From assembly GCA_947364365.1 (NCBI GenBank), contig CANASP010000019.1, positions 1 through 37,229 on the forward strand: a stretch of DNA of 37,229 nt. The letters run 5' to 3'. The DNA comes from an uncultured Alistipes sp. (lineage in GTDB: Bacteria > Bacteroidota > Bacteroidia > Bacteroidales > Rikenellaceae). A program made the position numbers and the translations under genes. Position 1 is the stretch's first letter; the number at the start of each line of letters is the position of its first letter. Below, one piece after another: positions 6,212 to 21,309 of the stretch. Under the pieces are notes generated by a model, which was not told the origin of the DNA, did not search any database, and saw nothing but the letters and a program-made list of their open reading frames with translations.

Positions 6212-6658
6212 TCAATCGCGCAGCGCCGCGAAAAAACGGGTCATGAGTTCGGCGCAGTCGCTTTCGAGCACGCCCCGCGCGAGGGTCGTCCGCGGATGGA
6301 ACACCGCTTCGCAATAGCGCCGGAACCCCTTCTTCGGATCGTCGGCGCCCCACACCACGCGCCCGACCTGGGCCCAGCCGATGGCGCCGGCGCACATGAT
6401 GCAGGGCTCGACCGTCACATACAACGTGCACTCCTGCAAATACTTGCCGCCCAATGTCGCGGAGGCGGCCGTCAGGGCCTGCATCTCGGCGTGAGCCGTG
6501 GGATCGGCGAGCGTCTCGACCAGGTTGTGGCCGCGCCCGACGACCGCGCCGTTCGCCACCACCACCGCGCCGATCGGCACCTCCTTTTCATCGAATGCCT
6601 TGCGGGCCTCGGTCAGTGCGAGGCGCATGAATTTTTCGTCGATTTCCTGTTGCGACAT
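6212..6658 (-). CDS. tadA: tRNA-specific adenosine deaminase
   Basis: Deaminates the wobble adenosine of tRNA-Arg(ACG) to inosine. The 148-residue protein has the zinc-site motifs of the family: HAEMQAL near 56-62 (His ligand and catalytic Glu) and PCIMCAGA near 85-92 (two Cys ligands). The C-terminal FHPRTTLARGV segment is also TadA-like. The open frame reaches further upstream, but the ATG at 6658 gives the normal N-terminus and follows the promoter by a short leader. It is a single gene, divergent from aspS. Confidence 0.94.
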   Translation of the reverse strand: MSQQEIDEKFMRLALTEARKAFDEKEVPIGAVVVANGAVVGRGHNLVETLADPTAHAEMQALTAASATLGGKYLQECTLYVTVEPCIMCAGAIGWAQVGRVVWGADDPKKGFRRYCEAVFHPRTTLARGVLESDCAELMTRFFAALRD

Positions 6659-6681
6659 GGTTTCCGGAGTTTTGTGTCGTG

Positions 6682-6713
6682 CAAAAATAGCGATTCGCGC
6701 GGGAGGATGCAAA
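6682..6713 (-). promoter_or_regulatory. tadA promoter
   Basis: On the minus strand TTTG (6710-6713), 20 nt, then TATTTTTG (6682-6689), 23 nt before the tadA ATG. Both boxes match the consensus. Confidence 0.75.
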
Positions 6714-6840
6714 TCGGTGAGGGGCGGGTTGCCTTCGCTTTCCGCCATTCTCCGGAGTGGGCAATCGGGGCGCCGCTGCGCGGCATGTATCGGATTTCGG
6801 CCGGGCATTGCGGCTTCCCGGAGCCGCCTTCCGGCGGAGG

Positions 6841-7184
6841 TCCGCTTGCTTCTGCGCTCGCTTATTCGTATCTTTGGCTGCGCCGAAGATACTCGCGCCT
6901 CGGGAAACTCAAAACAAGTTTGCGTTTGCCCTCACTTATTCGTATCTTTGACATCGGCTTCGCCTCGTCTTAGATACTCCGTCTCGGCATAATCAAGCGT
7001 TCCGCTTGCTTCTGCGCTCGCTTATTCGTATCTTTGGCTGCGCCGAAGATACTCACGCCTCGGGAAACTCAAAACAAGTTTTGGTTTCCTCTCGGCTTAT
7101 TCGTATCTTTGGCTTCGCCTTAGATACTCACGTTCGGCAAACTGCAAACAAGTTTGCGTTTGCCCTCACTTATTCGTATCTTTG
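6841..7184 (+). repeat. Array of five tandem promoter-like repeats upstream of aspS
   Basis: TATCTTTG occurs at 6869, 6943, 7029, 7104 and 7177, each preceded by CTTATTCG in whole or nearly so, and each with a TTG ending exactly 20 nt upstream (TTG at 6846, 6920, 7006, 7081 and 7154). The first four -7 boxes are the left arm of a hairpin whose right arm is GATAC-containing (GAAGATAC or TTAGATAC); the last, nearest aspS, is not. Bases 6841-6921 and 7001-7081 match at 80 of 81 positions, and 6912-6950 is identical to 7146-7184. Short hairpins such as GCAAAC-AA-GTTTGC (7144-7157) hold the -33 element of several units. Confidence 0.88.
7153..7184 (+). promoter_or_regulatory. aspS-proximal promoter
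   Basis: TTTG (7153-7156), 20 nt, TATCTTTG (7177-7184), then 26 nt to the aspS ATG. It is the last copy of the promoter array and the only one whose -7 box is not followed by an inverted arm. Confidence 0.8.
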
Positions 7185-7210
7185 TCATTCGCAAGAAAAC
7201 AATAACACTT

Positions 7211-8968
7211 ATGTACAGAACACATACCTGCGGCTGCCTGCGTGCCGAGCATGTCGGACAGACCGTCACCCTGGCCGGGTGGGTGCAGAAGGTGCGCAAC
7301 CTGGGCGCCATGACTTTCATCGATCTGAGGGACCGCTACGGCATCACCCAGATCGTCGTCGAGGAACATTCGCCCGCCGAGGCGCGCGAGACGGCCGCCC
7401 GCGTGGGGCGCGAATGGGTGTTGCAGGTGACCGGCAAGGTCATCGAGCGCGAATCGAAGAACCCCAAGATGCCCACGGGCGACATCGAGGTCTCGGCCTC
7501 GGCGATCGCGGTGCTCAACGAGGCCCAGACGCCTCCCTTCACCATCGAGGAGAACTCCGACGGCGGCGACGACCTGCGCATGAAGTACCGCTACCTCGAC
7601 CTGCGCCGTCCGCCGTTGCAGCGTAATATGATCCTCCGCCACAAGATGGCGCAGGAGATCCGCCGCTTCCTCGACTCGGAGGGATTCCTCGAGATCGAGA
7701 CCCCCTACCTGGTGGGCTCGACGCCCGAGGGCGCGCGCGACTTCGTGGTCCCCAGCCGCATGAACCCCAACCAGTTCTACGCCCTGCCCCAGTCGCCGCA
7801 GACGCTCAAGCAGCTGCTCATGGTGGCCGGCTACGACCGCTATTTCCAGATCGTCCGCTGCTTCCGCGACGAGGACTTGCGCGCCGACCGTCAGCCCGAG
7901 TTCACGCAGATCGACTGCGAGATGGCCTTCGTCGAGCAGGAGGACGTGATCGCCATCTTCGAGCGGTGGGCCAAGCACATGTTCCGTCACGTCATGGGTA
8001 TCGAAATAGACGGGCCGCTGCGCCGCATGCCGTGGATCGAGGCGATGGAGAAGTACGGTTCGGACAAGCCCGACCTGCGCTTCGGCATGGAGTTCTCGGA
8101 CCTGACGGATCTGGCCAAGGGGCACGGATTCAGTGTCTTCGACGATGCCGAATACGTCACCGGCTTCGCCGCGACGGGCTGTGCGACTTACACGCGCAAG
8201 CAGATCGACGCGCTGACGGAGTATGTCAAGCGCCCGCAGGTGGGTGCCAAGGGGCTCGTGTGGATCCGCGTGGAGGAGAATGGCGTCAAGTCGTCGGTCG
8301 ACAAGTTCTACGCGCCCGACGAGGTGCGCGCCATGGCCGAGCGTTGCGGCGCCAAGGCCGGCGACATGGTCTTCATCCTCTGCGGCAAGAAGTTCCGGGC
8401 GCTGACGCAGCTCTGCGCCCTGCGTCTCGAAGTGGCCCAGCAGCTGGGGCTGCGCGATCCGAAGAAGTTCGCCCCGCTGTGGGTGGTCGACTTTCCGATG
8501 TTCGAGTGGGACGACGAGACGCAGCGTTTCTACGCCATGCACCACCCCTTCACCTCGCCCAAACCCGAGGACGTGGAGTATCTGGAGAGCGACCCGGGCC
8601 GCGTGCGCGCCAACGCCTACGACTTCGTGTGCAACGGCACCGAGATCGGCGGCGGCTCGATCCGTATCCACGACGCCAAGTTGCAGGCCACGATCTTCAA
8701 GTGCCTGGGCTTCACGCCCGAGAAGGCGCAGGAGCAGTTCGGCTTCCTGATGAACGCCTTCAAGTTCGGCGCGCCCCCTCACGGCGGCCTGGCCTTCGGA
8801 TTCGACCGTCTGTGCTCGCTCTTCGGCGGTTCGGAGTCGATCCGCGACTACATCGCCTTCCCGAAGAACAACGCCGGGCGCGACGTGATGCTCGACGCTC
8901 CGGGCTACATCGACCAGTCGCAGCTCGACGAGCTCTGCCTCTCGCTCACGGAGCCGGCGGCGAAATAG
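7211..8968 (+). CDS. aspS: Aspartyl-tRNA synthetase, bacterial type
   Basis: Class II synthetase charging tRNA-Asp. The 585-residue length is normal for the bacterial form with the GAD insertion. It starts with the OB-fold anticodon-binding domain ([25 protein letters not shown]). The catalytic domain follows with [33 protein letters not shown] and the motif-2 region [20 protein letters not shown]. The insertion domain is near the middle, and motif 3 ([16 protein letters not shown]) is near the C-terminus. The frame is open upstream into the promoter array, but the ATG at 7211 gives the family N-terminus. It is single, with a strong terminator behind it. Confidence 0.97.
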
Positions 8969-19770: not shown

Positions 19771-19806
19771 CAATTTTTAATTCTTAATTTTTCATTTTTA
19801 ATTTTG
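19771..19806 (+). repeat. AT-rich TTAATTCTT-type repeat, left of the MATE gene
   Basis: A 36-nt run built from CAATTTTTAATTCTT and CATTTTTAATTTT units in GC-rich surroundings. A run of the same type in inverted orientation begins inside the MATE stop region (21303-21329). Confidence 0.65.
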
Positions 19807-19827
19807 ATTAGGCTTCGGCTCGGCCAA

Positions 19828-19942
19828 GCAAATAAATTTGCCCGGCTGCTCGCCTTGCCCTACTTTGGCTTCGCCTTAGATAGGCTTCGGCTCGGCAAAA
19901 CGCAAGTAAACTTGCTTTTGCTCTCGCCTTGCACTATCTTTG
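19828..19942 (+). promoter_or_regulatory. Two promoter-like units before the MATE gene, the second intact
   Basis: The intact unit has TTG (19912-19914), 20 nt and TATCTTTG (19935-19942), 8 nt before the ATG. Its TTG lies in the right arm of the hairpin GCAAGT-AA-ACTTGC (19902-19915). An upstream unit has the hairpin GCAAAT-AA-ATTTGC (19828-19841) with TTTG in the same place, then 20 nt and TACTTTG, a -7 box shortened by one base, followed by a GCCTTAGATAG inverted arm. The layout repeats that of the array upstream of aspS. Confidence 0.75.
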
Positions 19943-19950
19943 CCGCCCTT

Positions 19951-21309
19951 ATGGGTTACGATTTCAAGACATACAAACCGCAGTACAAGGCCAACCTGAA
20001 ACTGGCGCTGCCCGTCGTGCTGACGCAGGTGGGGCAGATTCTCACGCAGATGGCCGACAACCTGATGGTGGGCCGCTACGGGGGCGATGACCCCGTGCCG
20101 CTGGCCGCCGTGTCGTTCGGCGGCTCGATCTTCTTCATCGTCTTCATCACGCTCGTCGGCGTGTCGCTGGGCCTCACGCCGCTCGTGGGCGAGCTGTTCG
20201 CGCGCGGCGACCGGCGCCGGTCGGCGGAGCTGCTGCACAACGGCATCGTCTTCTACACGCTGCTGGGCCTGGGCGGCACGTTGCTGCTGGGGGCGATGAC
20301 GCCGCTGCTCTACCGGCTCGGGCAACCCGCGGAGGTGGTCGAGGCGGCGATTCCCTACTACCGGCTGCTGGGCTACAGCATGCCCTTCATGATGCTCTTC
20401 TTCGCCTTCAAGCAGTTTCTGGAGGGGGTGGGGAACACGCGGGCCGAGATGGCCGTGACGATCCTCTGCAACCTGGCCAACATCGCCTTCAACTACCTCT
20501 TCATCTACGGCCGCTGGGGGTGCCCCGAGATGGGAGCCGTGGGCGCGGGCATGGGCACGCTCTTCTCGCGCATGATGGCGCCGCTGCTGATGATCGGCTA
20601 CTTCTTCCGCCGAGCGCACTATCGCCGCTACCTCGACGGCTTCTCGATCGGGCGCCGTTCGCTGCAACATGTGGGGCAGCTGCTCCGCATGGGGCTTCCC
20701 ATCGCGTCGCAGATGTTTCTGGAGTGTTCGGCCTTCGTCGGCACGAGCGTCATGATGGGGTGGTTCGGCAAGGAGGCCATCGGTGCCAACCAGATCGCCA
20801 TCACGCTGGGCAACTGCGCCTTCATGATCGTCATGTCGATCGGCGCGGCCACCACGATCCGCATCTCCCACTGCTACGGCGCCCGCGATATCGCCGCTTT
20901 GTCGCTGGCGGCCAAGGCGTCGTATCACCTCGTGCTGGCGTGGAACGCCCTGGCGGCGGTGTTGTTCATCTCGCTGCGCCACTGGATTCCGACCCTCTTC
21001 ACCTCCAATGCCGAGGTCGTCGCCATCACCTCGCAGCTGCTCGTCTTCGCGGCGCTCTACCAGCTTTCGGACGGGATCCAGAACATCTCGGTCGGCGTGC
21101 TGCGCGGGATTCAGGACGTGAAGGTCATCATGCCGATCGCGCTGGTGTCGTACTGGGTGCTGAACCTGCCGGTGGGCTACCTGCTCGGCTTCGTGTGGGG
21201 CATGGGGCCTTCGGGGCTCTTCCTCGGATTCTCGTTCGGGCTGTCGACGGCGGCCGTGCTGTTGATTCTCCGCATACGGCGCAGCGTGAGGAGGCTTTAC
21301 CAAAATTAA
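19951..21309 (+). CDS. MATE-family multidrug efflux transporter
   Basis: Inner-membrane cation-driven efflux protein of 452 residues, normal for the family, with about twelve hydrophobic helices in two related halves. NorM-like features include LPVVLTQVGQILTQMADNLM near the N-terminus, FKQFLEGVGNTRAEM in the middle and DGIQNISVGVLRGIQDVK in the second half. I chose the ATG at 19951 because it follows the promoter by 8 nt and gives the usual N-terminus; the frame is open further upstream through the repeats. The last codons and the TAA lie at the edge of an AT-rich repeat. The drug substrate cannot be predicted. Confidence 0.93.
   Translation: MGYDFKTYKPQYKANLKLALPVVLTQVGQILTQMADNLMVGRYGGDDPVPLAAVSFGGSIFFIVFITLVGVSLGLTPLVGELFARGDRRRSAELLHNGIVFYTLLGLGGTLLLGAMTPLLYRLGQPAEVVEAAIPYYRLLGYSMPFMMLFFAFKQFLEGVGNTRAEMAVTILCNLANIAFNYLFIYGRWGCPEMGAVGAGMGTLFSRMMAPLLMIGYFFRRAHYRRYLDGFSIGRRSLQHVGQLLRMGLPIASQMFLECSAFVGTSVMMGWFGKEAIGANQIAITLGNCAFMIVMSIGAATTIRISHCYGARDIAALSLAAKASYHLVLAWNALAAVLFISLRHWIPTLFTSNAEVVAITSQLLVFAALYQLSDGIQNISVGVLRGIQDVKVIMPIALVSYWVLNLPVGYLLGFVWGMGPSGLFLGFSFGLSTAAVLLILRIRRSVRRLYQN

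Follow-up and report, generated by a model that had tools for sequence, protein, structure and literature searches.

Why should a gene for aspartyl-tRNA synthetase be preceded by five copies of what looks like a complete promoter? The question arises on a contig of a draft genome of an uncultured Alistipes sp. (2.15 Mb in 38 contigs, 87% complete, with repeat arrays open to misassembly), of which we analysed a stretch of 37,229 nucleotides, hereafter called the window. The gene, aspS (7211..8968, plus strand, 585 aa, ATG at 7211), was identified by its Pfam domains tRNA-synt_2, GAD and tRNA_anti-codon. Its best named relatives in GTDB are from Alistipes and Rikenellaceae metagenome genomes, and its divergent neighbour (6212..6658, minus strand; Pfam MafB19-deam and dCMP_cyt_deam_1) is a deaminase gene which we take to be tadA-like. 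In front of aspS, the box TATCTTTG starts at 6869, 6943, 7029, 7104 and 7177 on the plus strand, with steps of 74, 86, 75 and 73 nt, and each of the five has a TTG exactly 20 nt upstream. The sigma-ABfr promoter of Bacteroidota is described, in the part of PMC7366714 used here, by a -7 element TAnnTTTG and a -33 element TTTG. All five boxes match the former, and at -33 units 1 and 3 carry CTTG instead of TTTG. The whole window contains TATCTTTG seven times on the plus and not once on the minus strand, where about 0.07 copies per strand would be expected (first-order Markov model, 60 simulated sequences); the remaining two copies start at 19935 and 28781. Positions 6841-6921 and 7001-7081 agree in 80 of 81 nt (the one mismatch is at 6895), positions 6912-6950 and 7146-7184 in 39 of 39 nt, and all five copies contain the 16-mer CTTATTCGTATCTTTG without a mismatch. 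The original prediction, which had reported these boxes, their spacing and the two duplicated segments and had read them as a promoter geometry multiplied by recent duplication, was borne out at every coordinate and on both of these points.

Each unit of the array consists of a palindrome of about 27-30 nt, here called HpB, a linker and then the TAnnTTTG -7 box. The -33 TTG sits in the right arm of HpB, with CTTATTCG or a variant of it between TTG and box, and HpB comes in several sequence types, beginning GGCAAACTGC, GGGAAACTC, GGCATAATC, GGCAATGCGC or GGTAAAAACC. A second hairpin, HpA (GTATCTTTGGCttcGCCGAAGATAC), is formed when another unit comes next, the box pairing with a downstream 'AAGATAC'-type arm. 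All elements of the aspS array lie on the plus strand. In unit 1, HpB is truncated to a right arm of the GGCATAATC type with the -33 TTG (6841..6860; covariance model match at 6823-6876, 29.7 bits), and box 1 (6869..6876) is the left arm of an HpA at 6868-6892 (HpA pattern match at 6867-6894). Unit 2 has a chimeric HpB (6902..6930; model match 6891-6950) with a left arm of the GGGAAACTC type and a right arm of the GGCAAACTGC type, and its box (6943..6950) opens a long HpA at 6942-6977. The HpB of unit 3 (6986..7015; model match 6976-7036) is of the GGCATAATC type and that of unit 4 (7062..7089; model match 7051-7111, 73.6 bits) of the GGGAAACTC type; boxes 3 (7029..7036) and 4 (7104..7111) are the left arms of HpAs at 7028-7052 and 7103-7127, both with HpA pattern matches. 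Unit 5 carries an HpB of the GGCAAACTGC type (7136..7164; model match 7126-7184, 82.2 bits) and ends in the terminal box 5 (7177..7184). A general repeat search of 6600-7500 returned one weak inverted pair (17 nt, 82%). Just 5′ of the array, a GC-rich stretch (6731-6790) has copies at L150:74-126, L284:1783-1837 and L149:1239-1282, with 78-87% identity over 44-55 nt and two of them close to another array; it is perhaps a second dispersed intergenic repeat.

HpB covaries strongly. Among 87 model matches (83 distinct) from loci of the same genome, in an alignment fitted to the model, 163 cells carry two-sided changes against 54.4 in shuffles, 91.7% of cells are paired, and 11 of 13 HpB pairs show two-sided changes; a MAFFT alignment of 29 hand-picked units gave 60 such cells against 18.8. 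Covariation is weaker in HpA than in HpB. Here 17 rows picked by hand from loci of this genome and of relatives yielded 11 cells with two-sided changes against 3.8 in shuffles and no excess of pair types (3 against 3.7), and part of the covariation is the change from TATC/GATA to TATA/TATA. In the same rows 89.8% of HpA cells pair, and the HpA arms at unit junctions are terminal inverted repeats. A cis-acting RNA leader of aspS, either a riboswitch or T-box-like, would account for the fact that the region folds better than its shuffles (z = -7.55 as RNA, z = -6.27 as DNA). However, the hairpins stand 5′ of the terminal promoter, the same cassette is found before unrelated genes, and Rfam gave no match at E <= 1 in 6600-7400, a result on which a riboswitch or other known structured RNA was discarded, so that we hold an RNA leader to be extremely improbable.

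The cassette is in fact dispersed over the genome and not confined to aspS. The original prediction had described neither the pair of hairpins nor this genome-wide occurrence nor the second array of the window (below). BLAST located the family in 44 places of the draft genome, a pattern search gave 68 matches at up to two mismatches against none for the reversed control pattern, and the covariance model gave 95 matches at E <= 0.01. Grouping of the 91 matches at E < 0.001 gave 54 sites, of which 23 hold 2-5 units, although weak units can be missed in this way. The original suggestion of a mobile promoter-bearing repeat family came close to this picture as regards the family and its promoters, while movement itself was not observed. 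Units are oriented with the gene and lie at promoters of ordinary genes. When the BLAST places were merged by eye into 42 oriented places, 41 contained a family box and 37 had an ATG ORF of at least 120 aa at 4-45 nt behind the last family box; among 4000 positions drawn at random from these loci, 12.3% passed the same test. A criterion looser than that of this null (any ORF start within 90 nt, 60+ aa, GTG/TTG allowed) was satisfied in 41 of 42 places. The five places failing the strict test are one palindromic copy read in reverse, L128, L143, L149, where a further partial unit lies between the last box and the ATG, and L144, where no convincing gene was found behind the array. In a stricter set of 35 arrays the start follows the last box by 4-41 nt in 32; the exceptions are L144 together with L135 and L140, in which box or start was missed by the script. 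By eye, the ATG lies 5 nt after the last box in L131, for which the script-assigned start was wrong, 20 nt in L135 and 4 nt in L140.

What stands behind the units is functionally mixed. Out of 41 ORFs behind arrays or single copies, 34 were searched against Pfam (L128 was omitted and six start strings were unresolved); all 34, plus aspS, had matches, and none of the 34 was a transposase. Going by their Pfam domains, the genes are presumably lepA, truA, der, an engB-like GTPase gene, dnaX, uvrA, queA and dapF, further those for class II dehydroquinase, RNase HII, Ham1 and transketolase, and others. At L135:6899-6966 a single HpB between der and the engB-like GTPase gene has outward -7 boxes on both sides, facing divergent genes, and possibly acts as a bidirectional promoter. 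The window itself holds a second array, recognized by the covariance model, with two units of a subfamily with TTGCAC/TTGCCC linkers (19812..19942, plus strand). Its internal box is one base short (TACTTTG), and its terminal TATCTTTG starts at 19935, is preceded by a TTG at 20 nt and ends 8 nt before the ATG at 19951 of a MatE-family gene (19951..21309, plus strand; Pfam). The genes behind arrays of this subfamily include a MatE gene and a glycine transporter gene. About five AATTTTT units (19772-19805) lie directly 5′ of this second array, and similar text precedes the array at L281.

How the units are placed becomes apparent from relatives. By eye, an array at aspS was present in none of the 27 Alistipes-type named loci listed and in none of the 19 congeners that carry the repeat and have a readable aspS (of 21 repeat-bearing genomes, two gave no aspS match), two sets that apparently overlap in at least three genomes. 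Nearly all relatives have a single TAnnTTTG-like box shortly 5′ of the aspS ATG, L059 being the exception. The aspS leader of the window (7185..7210, plus strand, beginning TCATTCGCAAGAA) agrees in 12 of its first 13 nt with the leader that in genome G007 directly follows the native box TACCTTTG, and the last box of the array therefore stands in the place of the native one. In the nearest relatives this native box reads TACCTTTG or TACTTTTG and not TATCTTTG, which argues that the box was replaced or mutated, not duplicated; there is no clean target duplication at the aspS junction. Box 5 keeps the register of the -7 box native to aspS in relatives and is likely to be the working aspS promoter. 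A related hairpin unit directly 5′ of its own aspS was seen in one of 50 named loci from other groups (L092:5880-5971, Bacteroidaceae bacterium RGIG1990), and the covariance model matched four times at E <= 0.01, twice marginally, in the 80 named loci.

A comparable situation is found at lepA, where four of 16 readable loci (G007, G072, G100 and G112) have hairpin units with leaders of 22-25 nt. Eight of the other 12 have, by eye, one box in the same place with leaders of 20-22 nt, and four differ, namely G127, G003 and two copies in G005. The lepA leader in the window's genome is 39 nt long and its box is identical to that of the array-free genomes G013 and G120. A strict target-site duplication fits lepA, not aspS. 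At truA an array occurs in G112, with apparent remnants in some other genomes, and at the transketolase gene G072 and G012 have units with longer leaders. Taken together, the comparisons at lepA, truA and transketolase indicate that array positions are partly shared and partly lineage-specific. From the comparison with relatives we conclude that at aspS and lepA the last -7 box of the array is the site of the native -7 box of array-free relatives, and the repeat appears to take over the place of the original promoter.

Are five promoters then maintained because they raise or tune aspS expression? All five boxes and their 20-nt spacing are intact, as would fit adaptive amplification of promoters, and fixed spacing had been taken as a sign of selection or of very recent origin. 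However, of 47 terminal units genome-wide, 45 have a TTG 19-21 nt 5′ of the box, as do 33 of the 37 internal ones (a few of these units are misassigned). The spacing is built into the family unit, which counts against such an amplification. Strict TAnnTTTG boxes do not differ significantly between terminal (36 of 47) and internal positions (24 of 37; p = 0.33). One-base-short boxes (TACTTTG) are mostly internal, with 12 of 33 internal against three of 47 terminal in the script table (p = 0.001) and 15 of 36 against none of 44 (p = 8e-7) after five rows were re-read by eye (L129+10396, L142+2577, L281+1533 and L145-2684 to internal, L139-2653 to terminal). In the TTGCAC subfamily, among pattern-found boxes at five sites, all seven internal ones are short and all five terminal ones full, and three internal boxes at lepA read GATATTTG. 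It seems from the short internal boxes that mainly the gene-proximal promoter is maintained. With the same cassette standing before many unrelated genes and aspS lacking an array in 19 of 19 readable family-bearing relatives, we regard adaptive amplification as unlikely, and neither selection for five promoters nor dosage tuning by the array, both of which had been considered, finds support in these data. The alternative of a recent origin fared better. Internal boxes at aspS are all intact amid short internal boxes elsewhere, and none of the readable family-bearing relatives has the array; on both counts it looks young.

Arrays do not seem to grow by one process only. In 23 multi-unit arrays with 60 units, box plus linker are more similar within than between arrays (0.887 against 0.809; 0 of 1000 shuffles). 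HpB shows no such difference (0.646 against 0.640; 363 of 1000 shuffles), and an array is therefore more than one unit copied in tandem. This comparison does not support tandem duplication as the only way in which arrays arise, yet such duplication did occur at aspS, where units 1-2 and 3-4 have 80 of 81 nt in common and the chimeric HpB of unit 2 joins two types. As a rule, an added unit seems to carry an HpB drawn from a genome-wide pool, the box conforming to the local one.

The best reading of the family is that of promoter-anchored palindromic repeat cassettes that recently expanded at aspS. More fully, we think it probable that at aspS a palindromic promoter cassette, dispersed over the genome and found patchily elsewhere in the order too, has expanded locally, and that aspS is driven by the terminal unit. 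The native promoter would have lost its upstream half to the repeat, with the gene's own leader kept. That the terminal unit serves as the promoter is suggested by its consensus match and by terminal boxes never being one base short, and units 5′ of it would be free to decay; the five intact boxes at aspS would then reflect the recent origin of the array. In part, the array arose by internal duplication and recombination of units 1-2 and 3-4, as the 80/81 identity and the chimeric unit 2 show. Units might reach new promoters either by insertion or by template switching or recombination, in each case anchored at the -7 box; a filled and empty strain pair was seen for none of the arrays.

Regarding this last step, spread without transposition, by recombination, gene conversion or replication template switching between hairpins with the -7 box region as short homology, appears plausible though short of probable. 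The chimeric unit 2, whose junction lies in the common AAACAAGTTT core, the greater likeness of boxes and linkers within arrays, and the native register of the terminal aspS box despite its different sequence all fit such a process. Against this, many unrelated promoters have been reached and the common box plus linker amounts to only about 16 nt, a homology that is short for recombination. A non-autonomous MITE of the form box-HpB-box, with terminal inverted repeats of 8-9 bp (GTATCTTTG) and a transposase acting in trans that prefers TAnnTTTG, would explain the ends of the unit, which are inverted repeats, the copy with one HpB, two outward boxes and two divergent genes between der and the engB-like gene, and the preference for -7 boxes, the patchy distribution and the genome-wide pool of HpB types, all of which fit mobility. 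But the 34 ORFs behind arrays include no transposase by Pfam, the rest of the genome having been covered for Y1 only, and aspS shows no clean target duplication; we rate a MITE as possible but doubtful. We may further speculate that a single-stranded hairpin cassette enters at the -7 box, in DNA melted by RNA polymerase, and is guided there by complementarity of its HpA arm (GAAGATAC, or GAATATAC on TATATTTG promoters) to the exposed box, and that each insertion restores a functional promoter beside the gene and leaves the old, often one-base-short box internal. This would make the family an undescribed class of promoter-targeting elements across Bacteroidales, a scenario which we consider rather unlikely.

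Our probable reading, a dispersed cassette expanded locally, is accompanied by a distribution that is patchy in the bacterial order. Within the genus draw, 21 of 121 genomes, our own among them, contain the strict HpA pattern (20 of 120 others), with no match of the control; the covariance model (E <= 1e-4) has matches in 17 of 149 genomes sampled over the order, again including our own (16 of 148 others). We examined 20 loci from ten of the sixteen other model-positive genomes, and many of these arrange their parts alike but differ in hairpin sequence, e.g. GTATTTTTGCGATAAATCGCGAAGATAC. Eleven of the 20 copies have an ATG ORF (50+ aa) within 50 nt and five only at 63-108 nt, the 108 nt of L263 being due solely to an extra unit that follows. 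In four (L261, L262, L272 and L275, the last close to a contig end) there is no ATG ORF of 50+ aa within 160 nt; the box of L271 is degenerate. Copies in genome G262 (L261, L262 and L264) have the box TAGATTTG and common flanks beginning ACGTTCGTTGAAT, with a gene start 88 nt off or none near, and may represent a related element with another location habit. A phage or plasmid origin was rejected: plasmids gave no match, phages gave two (E 3e-8 and 4e-6), both in unannotated 'Bacteriophage sp.' records from human faecal samples, and the exact 24-letter pattern was absent from viral_contigs. The repeat might also be thought to consist of REP sequences moved by a RAYT (Y1) transposase, being palindromic, intergenic, dispersed and found in arrays. 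However, Y1_Tnp (PF01797) was detected in a single one of the 121 genus-draw genomes, G088, and there the repeat pattern is missing (both searches covered 121 genomes, taken as the same set), and on reading, the foot of the hairpin has no GTAG/CGTC tag. As no repeat-bearing genome tested had a Y1 transposase, this identity was dropped, and we deem it very unlikely.

If our reading is true, a repeat element that has relatives in several families of the order takes over core promoters of these bacteria again and again. The same genes in related species, with 0 to 5 units, would provide a natural series for the study of promoter turnover, and the repeat would complicate promoter prediction as well as short-read assembly in these genomes.

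No description of this repeat was found among the best-ranked matches in openly accessible literature, those for the sequence words included, and the part of PMC2864571 consulted does not mention it. Both elements of the sigma-ABfr promoter, as given in the part of the source cited above, are present in the units at the expected spacing; what differs is the promoter's setting, a two-hairpin repeat that stands before many genes. Correia elements of Neisseria are small, dispersed palindromic elements that carry promoters, and in these respects they resemble the cassette. Their terminal inverted repeats are longer and their target duplication is TA, and to our knowledge they do not form arrays in register with native promoters. 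BrickBuilt of Porphyromonas gingivalis, according to the portions of PMC4596501 consulted, is a MITE with a 23-nt minisatellite and is likewise a tandem, intergenic element of Bacteroidota with promoter activity in parts of it, one copy lying less than 100 nt from argS. In contrast to our units, its leader and tail segments carry IS-like terminal inverted repeats; the promoters tested there belong to these two segments. The element is reported at distances of 49-591 nt from coding sequences, and its 23-nt repeat compares with unit steps of 73-86 nt at aspS. REP palindromes with RAYT, as portrayed in the consulted part of PMC3733652, are also short, dispersed and clustered, whereas the present repeat sits on promoters and the repeat-bearing genomes tested have no Y1 transposase. 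Neither for BrickBuilt (PMC4596501) nor for REP/RAYT (PMC3733652) do those parts of the papers mention repeats in register with core promoters. Promoter-bearing repeats as such are already known; this one has its end on housekeeping core promoters, in a single orientation and, at the two genes compared, in the native register.
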